From an uncultured Anaerobiospirillum sp. (GTDB lineage Bacteria; Pseudomonadota; Gammaproteobacteria; Enterobacterales; Succinivibrionaceae), in the NCBI GenBank assembly GCA_944389785.1, contig CALXNP010000013.1, positions 1-38,752 on the forward strand: a stretch of 38,752 nucleotides of DNA, written 5' to 3'. A program made the position numbers and the translations under genes. Below, one piece after another: positions 122 through 34,645 of this stretch (positions are counted from its first letter, which is position 1; each line of letters opens with the position of its first letter). Below the pieces are notes generated by a model. That model had not been told where the DNA came from. It saw only the letters and a list, made by a program, of their open reading frames with translations, and did not search any database.

Positions 122-1135
122 ATGAAGAAAAAGCATATTTTAGGTCTAATTAAAAATCATAGTAATCATAATGAAGAGGCTTTTAGACAAGATGCTTATG
201 CTATTGCCAAGGACTTTGATGCTATAGGTGATCATGAATTATCACAATACATTATGTCTTTACTTTCTGATCACACACAAGAAGGCTTAACTATAGATAA
301 AGGTAAAACTTTTAGTTTTGAAAAATTAAATGGCAGTGAAAAGGATTTATATCTGCCAAGCTGCATACATCAAGATTTACTTAATGCTATAGATGCTATT
401 AAATCAAATATTGGAGTAAATAAATTTTTGTTTGAAGGTTTGCCAGGTACAGGAAAATCAGCTAGTGTTAAGTATTTAGCAAGTAAATTAAATAAAGATA
501 TATATAAGCTTTATTGTCCTTATCTAGTAAATTCTAATGATGAGATTACAATACAAAACATTACCAAAGTTTTTTATGAAATTAATAGTTTACCTGCTTT
601 AGACAATATTATTATACTTTTTGATGAGATTGATGCTTTAGTAAGGGATGAAGCTGATGATAAAAATAAATTACAGCAGGATAAGGATAATTCTTCAAAA
701 ATGCTAATATCTACTTTATTAAATTGTATTGATAATCTAGATAGTAAAGTAATTAGTGTGGCTACTACAAATTTATTTAAAAGTTTTAATCGAGCTACAC
801 TTGCTCGTTTTGATGCTGTAATTAATTTTGATAGATATACAAGAGAGGATTTATTAATTATAGCAAGTTCCATGCTTGAGAGTTTTTTAGAGAAATTTCC
901 TCAATTAAATAAAAATATAGATTTATTTAAAAAAATTATTAATCTTTATACAGATATTCCTTATGCTAATGATTTAAAGAGTATTATTAAAAGCTCTATT
1001 GCTTTTAGTGATAAAAATGATAGTAATGATTATTTAAGACGCATTTATAAAACAGTAACTAATAGCGATAAGATACAAGAAAGTGTATTAAAAGAGCAAA
1101 AATTTACTCAAGCTCAAATACAAATACTTCTTTAA
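122..1135 (+). CDS. AAA+ ATPase, FtsH/CDC48-like core, of the type linked to S8 peptidases
   Basis: A 337-residue AAA+ ATPase. The ATG at 122 is preferred over an in-frame GTG at 98 because GGAG lies 5 bases before it. Visible motifs: Walker A GLPGTGKS (106-113), Walker B ILFDEIDA with D168 and E169, sensor-1 asparagine N217 in VATTN, and arginine-finger candidates R224 and R229 in ATLARFD. The first 50 residues (LIKNHSN...EEAFRQDAYAIAKD...LSQYI) form a small helical domain. I recall this N-terminal domain plus AAA core from bacterial ATPases encoded beside subtilisin-like (S8) proteases. No protease gene follows; 645 noncoding bases separate it from rsmH. The gene has its own terminators on both sides and is very AT-rich. 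The ATPase call is firm, but its substrate and role are unknown. Confidence 0.8.
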   Translation: MKKKHILGLIKNHSNHNEEAFRQDAYAIAKDFDAIGDHELSQYIMSLLSDHTQEGLTIDKGKTFSFEKLNGSEKDLYLPSCIHQDLLNAIDAIKSNIGVNKFLFEGLPGTGKSASVKYLASKLNKDIYKLYCPYLVNSNDEITIQNITKVFYEINSLPALDNIIILFDEIDALVRDEADDKNKLQQDKDNSSKMLISTLLNCIDNLDSKVISVATTNLFKSFNRATLARFDAVINFDRYTREDLLIIASSMLESFLEKFPQLNKNIDLFKKIINLYTDIPYANDLKSIIKSSIAFSDKNDSNDYLRRIYKTVTNSDKIQESVLKEQKFTQAQIQILL

Positions 1136-1780
1136 AAATATTAACTATTAATTAAATGATAGATATTAGGAGCATTGATGTTTAGTGTTTTGCTTGCCTT
1201 ACAAGCATCCATGCTCACTAATATTAGTTTTTGCATAATTATTTGATTAAAATGCTAAAAGTTTTAAAAAGAGTAAAAGTTTTTAAGTTTTTTATTAAAA
1301 ATACGTATAGTTTTATTGAGATAAGATAAGAAAATTTTTTAAATTTAAAGTAAAAATTTGTATGATTAAGAAAAATATTATGCTTTTATATAGTTGATAT
1401 AACAAAGATCTTTATAATTTTTTTATTTTCTGCATTATATATTGAAATATATCTTCCTAGCACAAAAATCATTTGGAAAATAGTTATAATTGTTATAAAA
1501 TTTGTGCAAAGTGGTAAGTAATAAAAACAAAATCAGTCTTACTGTCTTGAGTTTAACCTTAAAAATTATTTGAGCTATTGCTTAGCAGCAATAAATTGTC
1601 AGCAACAGTCATAAAGATCTTATTATGCTAAGTTAGAGCTTATTTTTAATAAAAGCTTAGAAGGTAAGTTTATTTAGATAAATTACCTTAGCTGATAATG
1701 ACACTTACAGATGAGCGTGTTTTTATAGACATAGCATCTTAATTATTCTTGTTCGTTTTTGTAAAATTTAGGCGTAAATT
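1136..1780. other. 645-base noncoding stretch before the dcw cluster
   Basis: No convincing gene on either strand; the longest plus-strand reading frame with a start that I tried (from 1252) has 25 codons. mraZ, which normally opens the cluster, is missing, and I see no MraZ-type TGGG repeats near rsmH. The stretch holds a large terminator-like hairpin (1163-1232) and two hairpins near the rsmH side: AGCTT...AAGCT at about 1637-1657, and a 12-bp stem with one bulge and a 4-base loop at 1661-1689. The last two could lie in the leader of the dcw transcript. No clear -35/-10 pair is seen. Confidence 0.6.
1163..1232 (+). terminator. Long imperfect hairpin with T-run after the ATPase gene
   Basis: Arms 1163-1180 and 1206-1224 pair over 17 bases with one mismatch and one bulge. 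The loop is 25 bases and contains a second possible stem (GCTTG with CAAGC). TTTTT follows at 1228-1232. It is placed and shaped like a terminator for the ATPase gene, though it is larger than most, so another structured RNA or a small repeat element is possible. Confidence 0.5.
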
Positions 1781-2731
1781 ATGACATTTGCTCACAAGTC
1801 AGTTTTACTCAATGAATGTATTGAGGCTTTGAGTATCAAAAAAGATGGTATTTATTTAGATGCTACTTTTGGTAGAGGTGGTCATTCTTTACAGATCTTA
1901 CAAAGACTTGGTGAAAATGGTCGTCTATATGCTGTAGATAGAGATCTTGAGGCTATTGCAGCTGCTAAGACTATTACAGATCCTAGATTTACAATAGTAC
2001 ATGGTGTTTTTTCTAATTTAAAGCAAATTTGTGATGAGCTTAATATCTTAGGTAAGGTTGATGGTTTATTGATGGATATTGGTGTCTCATCACCACAATT
2101 AGATGATGCTAGTCGTGGTTTTTCATTTATGCAAGATGGGCCACTTGATATGCGCATGGATAAAAGCGCAAGCATTGATGCAAATTATATTGTTAATAAT
2201 TATGCTAAAGCAGATTTAGTACGTATTTTTAAAGATTATGGTGAAGAAAAATTTGCAGCAAATGTAGCAAATGCTATTATCAAGCAAAGACAGCTAGAAC
2301 CTATTGATACTACAGCAAAGTTATGTAGTTTAATCGATAAGGCAGTACCATCTTTTAAAAACTCACATAAACATAAAGCAACACGTGTATTTCAAGCTTT
2401 ACGCATTGAAGTAAATTCAGAACTTAAGGAGCTAGAGTTGGCACTTGAGGCTAGTATTGATATTTTAGCTCCAAATGGCGTATTAGCTATAATAAGCTTT
2501 CATTCTCTTGAAGATAGAATAGTTAAAAGATTTTTACAACAACACTCAAGTCTACCACAAATTCCTGCATCTATTCCGCTTACCCAAGCAGAACTTATGC
2601 AGCGCTACAGCAGTAGTATTTTATTTACTAATGTTCAAAAACCGATTAAAGCAGGTGCTGATGAACTGCAAGCTAATGCAAGAGCTCGTTCAGCTACTTT
2701 ACGTGTAGCAAGACGTGCTAAAAGGGATTGA
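1781..2731 (+). CDS. rsmH: 16S rRNA (cytosine(1402)-N(4))-methyltransferase
   Basis: 316 residues (E. coli RsmH/MraW is 313). It uses SAM to methylate N4 of C1402 in the 16S rRNA of the small subunit. Seen: the SAM-binding loop LDATFGRGGHS near residue 26, MDIGVSSPQLDDASRGFSF near residue 105, and the C-terminal ISFHSLEDRIVKRF segment, all typical of the family. AGG lies 8 bases before the ATG. It is the first gene of the dcw cluster here because mraZ is absent. Its stop lies just before the start of ftsL, with the ftsL ribosome binding site inside its last codons, so the two are probably translated together. Confidence 0.97.
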   Translation: MTFAHKSVLLNECIEALSIKKDGIYLDATFGRGGHSLQILQRLGENGRLYAVDRDLEAIAAAKTITDPRFTIVHGVFSNLKQICDELNILGKVDGLLMDIGVSSPQLDDASRGFSFMQDGPLDMRMDKSASIDANYIVNNYAKADLVRIFKDYGEEKFAANVANAIIKQRQLEPIDTTAKLCSLIDKAVPSFKNSHKHKATRVFQALRIEVNSELKELELALEASIDILAPNGVLAIISFHSLEDRIVKRFLQQHSSLPQIPASIPLTQAELMQRYSSSILFTNVQKPIKAGADELQANARARSATLRVARRAKRD

Positions 2732-2733
2732 TC

Positions 2734-3231
2734 ATGAGTGCTTTAAAACAAAAAACAGATGAATCTTTTGAAGCAGAAAAACTTAATAATACAGCTACAG
2801 ATGACAGCAAAGCTAAGAATGAAGTAGAGCTTAAAAAGGTTCGCAGCAATATTGAGATTATGGACCCTATTTATCAAAAAGAGGTGTTCTATAGTACTCC
2901 TATTGTAAAAAATAAGGATTTTAATCATAGAGATTCTTTATTTCGGATAATCTTAGCTGATATTGGCAATAATTTTTACACTTATATGCTTGGTATAGTA
3001 CTTTGTGTTTTAGCTTTGTTTAAGGTAGATCAGGTACAAGATACACGTTATATGATAGCTAAGCTAAATGAAGTTACTATTCAAAATGAAAACTTAAATA
3101 AAACTTGGCTTAATTTATTGGCAAAACGCCAAAATCTCTCAGAGCATTCAAAAATTAGAGCAGATGCATATAATAAGCTTAAGATGCATGCTCCAAAGAC
3201 TGAAGCTGAGAAGGTAATTTATATTGATTAA
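2734..3231 (+). CDS. ftsL: Cell division protein FtsL
   Basis: 165 residues, longer than E. coli FtsL (121). FtsL is a bitopic inner-membrane protein that joins FtsB and FtsQ and activates FtsW/FtsI. Seen: a long charged cytoplasmic N-terminus (about 75 residues), one membrane helix (YTYMLGIVLCVLALF), and a periplasmic coiled coil with the family pattern LNKTWLNLL...RADAYNKLKMHAP. The ATG at 2734 is preferred over a TTG at 2728 because AAGGGA lies about 7 bases before it. The extra N-terminal length is unusual, and I cannot assign it a function. Sequence conservation in this family is weak, but position and topology are decisive. Confidence 0.92.
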   Translation: MSALKQKTDESFEAEKLNNTATDDSKAKNEVELKKVRSNIEIMDPIYQKEVFYSTPIVKNKDFNHRDSLFRIILADIGNNFYTYMLGIVLCVLALFKVDQVQDTRYMIAKLNEVTIQNENLNKTWLNLLAKRQNLSEHSKIRADAYNKLKMHAPKTEAEKVIYID

Positions 3232-30399: not shown

Positions 30400-31034
30400 T
30401 AAAAATAATATTAAAGATTAGTTTTGATATTTAATTTTAGTTTAATATCACTCATAACTTGATTTTATACCAGTAAAAAATAAAAGAGCAAATAAAAAAG
30501 AATAGATAAAGGAAATAAAAGCATAAAAAGTGGTGTGTGCGTAAAAAGATTTAATGATTTTAACATAGTACTCTAGCATTAATTTTTTTGTGAACTTGTG
30601 CAGATTTATCTAAAGGTTATAAATATTTTTATTAAATATGGGGCTATATTTGTTATAGTTATACTTGTTATAGAAATATAATATATTAAAAAATTTAAGA
30701 AATTTATATAAAGAGGTTTAGAAGCTCTTAGTAAAAAAGTTAAAGCTAATTGCTCTATATTTTAAGATAGAGTCTTAAGTATTGATAAAATTTTGATCAA
30801 GTAAATGTGCAATACATAAGTAAAAATATGGGGTGTATGTGGTAATATAAAAAGATAATCTTTAAGAGAATTTAAGTCTTTTAGGCTTAGATATTAATCT
30901 ATTAGACTGAAAATTTGTTAGTAGTTAAGATTATTTAGCTTTAGCTTGAAGATTTTCACTTCTTTAAGCAGAAGTGAAGTAGATATTTGCATTTAAAGTT
31001 TGGTAAATTATTTTGTAAATTAGGCAGGGTGACT
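30400..31034. other. Divergent noncoding region between mutH and rppH
   Basis: 635 bases, very AT-rich, with no gene that I can support. It contains a direct repeat TTGTTATAG (30650-30658, 30665-30673), a hairpin CTCTAT/ATAGAG (30753-30772), a near-perfect 19-bp dyad with TTGAT and ATCAA arms nine bases apart (30782-30800), a nested hairpin AGTCT..TAGAT-ATTA-ATCTA..AGACT (30875-30908), and a 9-bp hairpin TTCACTTCT/AGAAGTGAA (30955-30978) in the likely rppH leader. No convincing -35/-10 pair stands out. Confidence 0.5.
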
Positions 31035-31523
31035 GTGATTGATCACGATGGCTATAGAGCTAATGTAGGTATTGTTATTTGTAACACAAAAGGTCAAGTT
31101 TTGTGGGCTAAGCGTATATATCAAAACTCTTGGCAATTTCCACAAGGAGGCTTTGATAGTACCGATTTTTCTGCTGTTACAGCCATGTATCGTGAGCTAT
31201 ATGAAGAGCTAGGTCTTGAAAAAAAAGATGTAATTCTATTGGCAGAATCAAGTAAATGGTATAAATATAAATTACCTAAACGAATGATTAGATGGCAAGA
31301 CAACGTAGTATGTCTAGGTCAAAAACAAAAATGGTTTTTACTTTTGATAAATGATGATAATCAAAAGAAAATAGAATTTAATTTACAAGGACATCCTGAG
31401 TTTGATGCTTATCGCTTTGTCAGCTATTGGTATCCTGTAAGACAAGTGGTGTCTTTTAAGCGCGATGTGTATCGCAGTGTTTTAACAGAGTTTGCCCCTT
31501 ATGCTCTATTTAATAGGGAGTAA
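31035..31523 (+). CDS. rppH: RNA pyrophosphohydrolase RppH
   Basis: 162 residues (E. coli 176). Removes pyrophosphate from mRNA 5' ends and so triggers RNase E decay. The GTG at 31035 is chosen because it gives the family N-terminus ([17 protein letters not shown]) and has AGGG 5 bases upstream. Seen: WQFPQGG, the Nudix helix with R53, E54, E57 and E58, [19 protein letters not shown] and [19 protein letters not shown]. Oddity: the stretch between GG and the helix has one extra residue ([11 protein letters not shown], where E. coli has GGINPGESAE), and the first conserved Glu of the Nudix box is Asp. It heads the rppH-ptsP-thyA run, as in E. coli. Confidence 0.95.
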
Positions 31524-31568: not shown

Positions 31569-33833
31569 ATGGTAGACGAGAGACAGACACAAGTTTTACT
31601 TTCATTAAGAAAGATAACAGAGGATATTGCTAAACTAAAGAATCAAACAGAGATTGTTGATTTTTTGGTTAAAAGTATTAGGCAATGTACAAGAGCTGAT
31701 TGTTGTTCTTTATATCTGTGTGATGAGCAGCATAAGCGTTATCGTCTAGTTGCAACTGATGGCCTTTTACAAGCTGCAGTGGGTAAAGCAAGCCTTGGTT
31801 TAAATGAAGGTTTAGTTGGTGTAGTTGGTCAAAAGAAAGAAATTTTAGATTTAGCCAATGCCCCTTCACATCCTAATTTTAAATATTTGCCAGATGTAGG
31901 TGAAGATGAGTATCATTCTTTTTTAGGTGTACCAATTTTAAATACAGGTAAGCTTTTAGGTGTTCTAGTCGTACAAAGTAAAGAGCAAAAGATGTTTGGG
32001 CAGATTGAAGAATCCTTTATGGTGACAATTTGTGCTCAAGTAGCTAAGGTTTTAGCAGAATCTCATAATAAAACTGACAATAGCATTAGTACAGTTATAG
32101 GTTTAAGTGGTACAGGTGGTATTGCTATAGGTAAGGCCATGGTTTGGCAGCCTGCTGTATTAATTGATAAAGTTAAAATTATTCATTGTGATGATCCATC
32201 ATTGCAAAAAGAGCTATTTTTACAAACTTTATTTCAATTGCAGATTGAAATGGATAAGACAGCTCTTAAAATGCGTGAAAATGAGAGTGAGCAAGCTGTT
32301 AATGGCTTTTTAAGCGGTTATGGCTCTATGCTTGATGATTCTAGTTTTTCAGATGAAGTTGTAGCTTATATTTTAAAAGATGGACTTTTAGCTTCATCAG
32401 CTATTAAACGTGTATATGAGCATCGTTATAATGAAGCCTTAAGTTTAGGTAAGAAAGAAGAAAGTATTGAAATACGTGATTTTGCTCAGGTGTTGTTATC
32501 ACGTTTGCTGCATGCTTCAACTAAAGAATTTGATAATGTCAGCAATGTAATTTTAGTAGTTAAAACTTTATCTACTACTATAGTAGCAGATCTTCCTAAA
32601 GAAAAAATTTCAGGCTTTGTTATTACTGATAGTGATAGCTCAAGCAGCAATGCTATGATTTTAGCTAAAGATTTAGGTATTCCTGTAGTAGCAGGAGCTT
32701 CGCTTAATATCAATACTATTGATGGTAGAAATTTAGTTATTAATGGTAAGAGTGCTGTAATTTTAATAGATCCGCCATCATCTGTTTTAGATGAGTTTTC
32801 TCAATTAATTAATCAAACAAAAGAACAACATGATCTCTATTCAAAAGAAATCTGCAAACCAACTATAACTTTAGATGATAAACGTATTACTTTTAAATTA
32901 AATGCAGGTTTAAATTCAAAAAGTGATGATGAAATTGAAAATGAAGTAGATGGTGTAGGATTATATAGAACTGAAATTGCTTTTATGTTAACCCAAAGTT
33001 TTCCTTTGGAGCAAGAGCAGTATGAGTGGTATAGCTCATTATTAGCAAAATTTAGGCATAAAAAAGTATGTATGCGCACTTTAGATATAGGCTCAGATAA
33101 AGGACTTAGCTATTTTGTTAACAAAGAGCAAAATCCAGCTTTAGGTTTGCGTGGTGTACGTGTAACTTTAGATCAGCCTCAAATTTTAAATACACAGCTT
33201 AAGGCTATGCTGCGTGCTAATCAAGATTATGGCAATCTTGAAATAATGTTACCTATGGTGTCTTCTTTAAAAGAGGTTATTTCTGTTAAAAATACTTTAA
33301 AGCAAATGGCTTTAGAAATTGAAGAAAGTACACATAAAACTGTAAAAATGCCTTCTTTTGGAGTAACGATTGAAGTACCAAGTATTGCTTATGTTATAGA
33401 TGATCTGCAAGAGCATGTTGATTTTTTCTCAATTGGCAGTAATGATCTAGTACAATACTTACTTGCAGTTGATAGAAATAACCCATTAGTAAATAGATTT
33501 TATAATCCATTTAATAGTGCGGTTGTACGCTCACTTGCTTATTTTAAACAAAAGTGTGATAGCTTTAATAAGCCAATATCAATTTGTGGTGAGCTTGCTG
33601 GTAATCCTATGGGACTATTGTTATTACTTTCTTTAGGTTTTGATAATTTATCTATGAATTATTCAGAGCTAGCAAGAGCTAAGTATATAACAAGAAGAGT
33701 AAGCGTTGAGCAATTGCGTAAACTTGGACAAGAAGCTTTAAAATTAAGCAGTTCAACACAAATTAAAGCTTTGTATTTAGATTATGCTCAAGCTAATGGT
33801 TTGGCAAAAGTGATTGATGTTAAAGCTCATTGA
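31569..33833 (+). CDS. ptsP: Nitrogen-PTS Enzyme I (PtsP) lacking the phosphorylated histidine
   Basis: 754 residues (E. coli 748). EI-Ntr normally takes phosphate from PEP and passes it to NPr and PtsN. Domains: GAF sensor (about 10-165), PEP-utilising HPr-binding and phospho-His domains (about 170-400), and a TIM barrel (about 425-735). The barrel keeps [55 protein letters not shown] and C673 (ICGELAGN). At the active site, however, where E. coli reads NSHAAIL, this protein reads SSNAMIL: residue 361 is Asn (codon AAT at 32649-32651), and the usual GEMAGD ends in Asn (N679). Without His it should not carry phosphate. It overlaps the thyA leader; the usual lgt gene between them is absent. 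Confidence 0.93.
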
Positions 33834-33850
33834 TAATTAAGAGGTTTGCT

Positions 33851-34645
33851 TTGAGAGTATATTTAGATTTAATGCAGAAGATCTTAGATGAGGGTATCGA
33901 TAGAGAAGATAGAACAGGTACTGGCACTAGATCTATTTTTGGTACACAAATGCGTTTTGACTTAAATGCAGGTTTTCCTTTGCTTACAACTAAAAAAGTG
34001 CATTTAAAATCAATTATTCATGAGCTTTTATGGTTTTTAAGTGGCGATACTAATATTAAATATCTAAAAGATAATGGTGTTAGTATTTGGGATGAATGGG
34101 CTGATGAAAATGGAGATTTAGGTCCTGTATATGGCAAGCAATGGCGTTCTTGGCAATGTTATGATGGACGTGTTGTTGATCAAATTCAAAATGCCATTGA
34201 CGCTATTAAACACAATCCTAATTCAAGACGCATTATTGTGAATGCTTGGAATGTAGCTGATGTAGATAAGATGGCTCTGCCTCCATGTCATGCTTTATTT
34301 CAATTTTATGTAGCTAATAATAAATTATCTTGCTTACTCTATCAAAGAAGCTGTGATTTCTTTTTAGGTGTACCTTTTAATATAGCAAGCTATTCTTTAT
34401 TAACTATGATGATGGCTAAAGAATGTGATTTAGGTTTAGGTGATTTTGTGTGGACTGGTGGTGATACTCATTTGTACCATAATCATTTTGAGCAGGCAAA
34501 ACTTCAGTTATCACGCGAGGTTAGACCTTTACCTACTATGAAAATCTTAAGAAAAGCTAAAAGTTTATTTGATTATAAGTATGAGGATTTTGAGCTTGAA
34601 AATTATAATCCTCATCCTGTTATTAAAGCAAAGGTTGCAGTTTAA
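33851..34645 (+). CDS. thyA: Thymidylate synthase
   Basis: 264 residues, exactly the E. coli length. Methylates dUMP to dTMP with methylene-tetrahydrofolate. The TTG at 33851 is chosen as start because it aligns with the E. coli start ([15 protein letters not shown]) and has GAGG 6 bases upstream; longer starts overlap ptsP. Seen: [44 protein letters not shown], the catalytic C146 ([12 protein letters not shown]), [18 protein letters not shown] and [15 protein letters not shown]. The rare TTG start may limit translation. It touches sdhE directly. Confidence 0.97.

Follow-up and report, generated by a model that had tools for sequence, protein, structure and literature searches.

The window, the whole 38,752-nucleotide stretch of DNA analyzed here, is contig C13 of a 2.2-Mb draft genome in 130 contigs (99.3% complete, 0.02% contamination). 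On its forward strand lies ptsP (31569 to 33833), an unbroken frame of 754 codons that codes for EI-Ntr, in which the open frame, profile matches, and predicted fold delineate a GAF domain, an EI N-terminal part (EIN), and a PEP-binding barrel, without the phospho-histidine. The gene overlaps by 4 bases a thyA-like ORF directly downstream (33830 to 34645, forward strand); lgt, which sits between ptsP and thyA in E. coli, is absent from between them in the window. Directly upstream, on the same strand, is an rppH-like Nudix ORF (30987 to 31523), both neighbors having been named by reading their sequences alone. With the neighbor identified in this way, the adjacency matches the rppH-ptsP order described as the usual arrangement (PMC13104625). 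No second intact ptsP was found in the genome, where no other place matches PtsP over its full length.

The PtsP protein of the window scores 676 bits against the NCBIfam equivalog PRK11061 (cut-off 583), and four Pfam domains lie above their cut-offs, all on the forward strand: GAF (PF01590, 59.7 bits; residues 28 to 161, positions 31650 to 32051); PEP-utilisers_N, which is part of the EI N-terminal domain (PF05524, 42.9 bits; residues 178 to 287, 32100 to 32429); PEP-utilizers, the mobile phospho-His domain, here devoid of its His (PF00391, 36.6 bits; residues 326 to 394, 32544 to 32750); and PEP-utilizers_C, the PEP-binding barrel (PF02896, 295.7 bits; residues 430 to 711, 32856 to 33701). 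The predicted structure (pLDDT 82) matches EI (2hwg; Z 39.7), while its PEP domain matches 2xz7 (Z 39.5, rmsd 1.9) and its GAF domain matches the PtsP GAF structure 3trc (Z 28.3).

The codon at 32649 to 32651 (forward strand) is AAT; in an alignment to E. coli EI (2hwg), the resulting N361 falls on the phospho-His. We compared this site across a family of 57 genomes, probably Succinivibrionaceae, in which the window's genome is the sole member of its genus and the nearest PtsP is 57 to 58% identical. Among the 52 aligned PtsP proteins of the family, 46 have His in this column; the exceptions are the Asn of the window's genome, Ile in G020, G022, G023, and G024, and Leu in G025. For an independent set, contigs of named genomes were scanned; a single-protein query gave no PtsP match, and an alignment-based query gave 80 PtsP proteins, none from a sister species. 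Most of these come from gamma- and alphaproteobacteria and a few from other groups, among them one spirochaete; 79 lie outside the family, and the remaining one (L159, RUG14131) is identical in DNA to G053. All 80 have His at this site. The phospho-His is otherwise invariant outside the family, and N361 is no chance reading; the Asn that a sequence-only reading of this DNA had placed at the phospho-His site is thereby confirmed by the codon, the E. coli EI alignment, and both sets of homologs. That reading had also proposed aligning the motif in related genomes and named His in close relatives as a refutation; the relatives compared, in which His predominates, are 50 to 58% identical and too distant to refute the claim.

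The PEP-binding site, by comparison, is complete: R467, R503, E602, N625, D626, R636, and C673 are all present and are invariant in the 42 aligned family proteins used for conserved-site counts. The open frame, the GAF domain, the barrel residues, and C673 are thus retained as first claimed. The supposed second catalytic loss, N679 (codon 33603 to 33605, forward strand), did not hold up, as its column is variable in the same 42 proteins (S 21, D 15, N 3, and E, M, and V one each). The loop around N361 (SSSSN) is serine-rich and has one residue more than its counterparts; such loops vary across the relatives, which makes the altered surroundings weak as evidence. An origin of the odd loop in a one-residue insertion or a pair of frameshifts was likewise rejected, since the frame is open and the loops of relatives vary.

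The other end of the relay, whose change escaped the sequence-only reading, shows a comparable replacement. The sole ptsN of the genome lies on contig C27 (L056) in the order rpoN-hpf-ptsN-rapZ, and the phospho-His position of its product is I66, encoded by ATA (C27, 10161 to 10163, complement strand), in the motif GLAMPIAL, as against GIAIPHGK in E. coli. The His is kept in E. coli and in all 47 other aligned PtsN proteins of the family. ATA matches neither His codon at any of its three bases, and a sequencing error or one recent mutation therefore does not account for it. No second intact ptsN was found in the genome, where the other three PTS_EIIA_2 matches sit in open frames of about 620 to 640 aa. 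The protein scores 49 bits against TIGR01419 (cut-off 138.7), a threshold below which three His-bearing relatives in the family also fall (57 to 62 bits); the confidence of its predicted structure is moderate (pLDDT 69), and no argument is built on it.

In gammaproteobacteria, npr (ptsO) usually lies downstream of rapZ; no HPr-like ORF was found in that position in this genome or at the family rpoN loci read (L056, L063-L108, L121). Of the components that the sequence-only reading had singled out for a search, ptsN is at the rpoN locus in a His-less form and npr was not found there, while HPr and EI are encoded elsewhere: three HPr proteins and two EI proteins (C32, C34) have their His intact. 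Any of these three HPr proteins could be the carrier for the PtsN relay. With these His-bearing proteins, it appears that a sugar PTS can function even though the PTS-Ntr is phosphate-blind at both of its ends.

On the evidence of alignments and trees, the phospho-His of PtsP is lost at least twice in the family, once to Asn in the window's genome and separately to Ile or Leu in the genera g6 and g8. A PtsP tree computed from the columns outside the phospho-His region gives two state changes, and a single clade of His-less forms is rejected by the AU test (delta lnL 99.5, p-AU 8e-9). The His-less proteins of g8 and g6 score 765 and 786 bits against the PtsP equivalog (cut-off 583), so that annotation pipelines would call them active. 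For the His-less g8 pair G023/G024, dN is 0.002, dS is 0.39, and dN/dS is 0.004, compared to 0.017 to 0.071 in His-bearing pairs; this ratio comes from one close pair, as dS is saturated in most g8 pairs. Between the ptsP genes of G022 and G023, 66% of four-fold sites and 5% of residues differ, and across the g8 pairs other than G023/G024 four-fold site divergence is 60 to 66% against protein identities of 83 to 95%, which backs the ratio. The His-less PtsP of g8 is under strong purifying selection, and by this reading of the sequences its gene is kept for a purpose other than phosphotransfer by way of that His. PtsN retains its His in both g6 and g8; g8, where selection was measured, and the window's genome may therefore differ in function. 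The loss can also lead to loss of the gene: in G056 (genus g14; L132, G056:C35, 1237 to 3835, reverse strand), a ptsP with Ile at the phospho-His site is split over three frames and is likely a pseudogene, and no ptsP was found in the three genomes of g10 (G027-G029).

With its nearest PtsP at the above distance, the window's genome was assessed by relative tests, the dN/dS estimate being that of g8. The root-to-tip distance of its PtsP is 1.74, in the middle of the family range, and the protein deviates at 5 of about 157 conserved columns, within the range of His-bearing relatives. Its EIN is no more diverged than its EIC (ratio 0.82 versus 0.83). PtsN ranks 19th of 39 in root-to-tip distance, next to a RapZ rank of 19 of 35, and deviates at 3 of 17 conserved sites, again within the range of His-bearing relatives. 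Both proteins evolve at ordinary rates, with no excess of conserved-site losses and no look of decay; the early decay that had been entertained for ptsP finds no support in these tests, although decay may have set in recently.

Taking these findings together, we consider it fairly likely that the species represented by the window has a phosphate-free nitrogen PTS, in which PtsP is a pseudo-phosphotransferase and PtsN stays fixed in the unphosphorylated state. We favor this reading because both ends of the relay (N361 of PtsP and I66 of PtsN) are changed in one genome while the rest of each protein is intact. With Asn in place of the acceptor His, PtsP would take no phosphate from PEP; its retained barrel residues predict PEP binding, and its GAF domain is likely to bind a ligand. 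The sequence-only reading had suggested a pseudo-enzyme that retains its PEP site and GAF domain but passes no phosphate to NPr, and this fits all these data. PtsP is most likely a ligand-responsive scaffold, governed by the GAF domain, perhaps by PEP occupancy, and by protein contacts, rather than a kinase. PtsN, with Ile for its acceptor His, would escape phosphorylation and remain fixed in the form that elsewhere binds potassium transporters and other partners. The output of the system would then be constitutive binding by PtsN together with a ligand-sensing PtsP scaffold, acting through protein contacts. This is favored because unphosphorylated PtsN has published partners and PtsP a published contact with SpoT: PtsN of E. 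coli, when free of phosphate, binds TrkA, YcgO, and KdpD (PMC13104625); in Ralstonia the unphosphorylated form binds SpoT, whereas in Caulobacter only the phosphorylated form does (PMC4848567); and Caulobacter PtsP is reported to act outside phosphotransfer by contacting SpoT (PMC13104625). Candidate targets in the window's genome are a TrkA-like protein (466 aa) and two RelA/SpoT proteins; KdpD was dropped as a target, being absent from this genome. More tentatively, and with somewhat less than even confidence, we propose that Succinivibrionaceae have repeatedly turned PtsP into a sensor or scaffold that does not phosphorylate, and that here the whole relay signals solely by ligand binding and protein contact, with PtsN permanently unphosphorylated and competent to bind its targets.

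An alternative is that the pathway is decaying: phosphate flow became useless, perhaps on takeover by other EI or HPr proteins or on loss of npr, the acceptor His residues drifted, and the genes are now being lost. The damage to both relay ends in one genome would fit such a course, as would the lack of npr at the rpoN loci read in the family and the g6/g8/g10/g14 group, which includes both the broken His-less ptsP of G056 and g10 without ptsP. We nevertheless regard decay as unlikely, in that the frames and PEP site are intact, rates are ordinary, and conserved-site losses in PtsP and PtsN are few; further, the three base changes from His to ATA in ptsN imply elapsed time without other visible damage, and the His-less PtsP of g8 is under strong purifying selection. 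It is also conceivable that phosphotransfer by PtsP continues through a different residue or mechanism, such as a neighboring Ser in SSSSN or transient hydrolysis of PEP, given the fully conserved PEP site and the serine-rich loop. This is highly improbable: EI, PPDK, and PEP synthase all use His as the phosphate acceptor at the equivalent spot, the g6 and g8 proteins have Ile or Leu without Ser enrichment, and the PtsN end of the window's genome is itself unphosphorylatable.

That one or both codons were misread or misassembled is the most improbable explanation of all. The genome is a draft in 130 contigs, and CAT to AAT in ptsP is a single base; against this stand the independent three-base change in ptsN on another contig, the high completeness and low contamination of the assembly, the normal synteny at both loci, and the fact that five further genomes, their ptsP frames intact, have the same PtsP site replaced. 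The sequence-only reading had also thought error unlikely, and this judgment survives on the strength of the ptsN codon and the selected His-less PtsP clade, but not for the reason it drew from N679. Therefore, with the His lost from both PtsP and PtsN and the remainder of each intact, and with a separate branch keeping a His-less PtsP under selection, the relay proteins of this bacterium probably work without passing phosphate, the reading that we prefer.

The PTS is defined by phosphohistidine transfer. The system described here resembles the PTS-Ntr of E. coli and other Proteobacteria (PtsP-NPr [PtsO]-PtsN) in its GAF-EIN-EIC order, PEP-site residues, PtsP equivalog score, and rppH-ptsP and rpoN-hpf-ptsN-rapZ gene orders, but differs from it in the want of a phospho-His in PtsP and PtsN and of npr beside rapZ. 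The laboratory dead mutants E. coli EI H189Q (PDB 2l5h) and Caulobacter EIIA-Ntr H66A (PMC4848567) carry replacements of the same residue and retain the fold; in contrast, the replacements here are natural and lie at both ends of one relay. The His-less PtsP proteins of g6 and g8 are similarly intact with the phospho-His replaced, yet they have Ile or Leu rather than Asn, a PtsN with its His, and an EI and EIIA-Glc pair with intact His. A 2026 review of the PTS-Ntr has phosphorylation occur on the conserved His "in all cases" (PMC13104625), and our literature search, which covered open-licence papers, turned up no description of a natural loss of the phospho-His from PtsP or PtsN. A natural, selected His-less PtsP and an acceptor-less PtsN would separate the phosphate-carrying roles of these proteins from their binding roles, and these species are a natural setting in which to test the phosphate-independent PtsP roles hinted at by Caulobacter SpoT. 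They also caution that the equivalog label "phosphoenolpyruvate--protein phosphotransferase" can mislead with regard to activity, as His-less forms too score above its cut-off.

Other PTS proteins in the family show comparable losses. In the window's genome (L061, G000:C14) and in 20 family genomes (L223-L242), an EI-like gene (1181 to 2845, reverse strand, in the former) adjoins an EIIA-Glc-like gene (649 to 1194, reverse strand). In all 21 genomes, Ser-Ser replaces the catalytic Asn-Asp of the EI-like protein, whose catalytic Cys is missing, and the EIIA-Glc-like protein has lost both functional His residues. The pair looks like a maintained pseudo-ptsI-crr system, alike to the PtsP of the window in that catalytic or phospho-acceptor residues are lost and the gene is conserved; unlike that PtsP, the EI-like protein keeps a His in the loop and has lost the PEP-site N-D pair and Cys. 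PTS proteins thus seem to turn non-phosphorylating repeatedly in this family. Finally, beside an EI gene in G020 (L133, G020:C21, 5187 to 5450, reverse strand), we observed an HPr-like protein with EGLVTRK in place of GLHxRP, which seems to be without its phospho-His.
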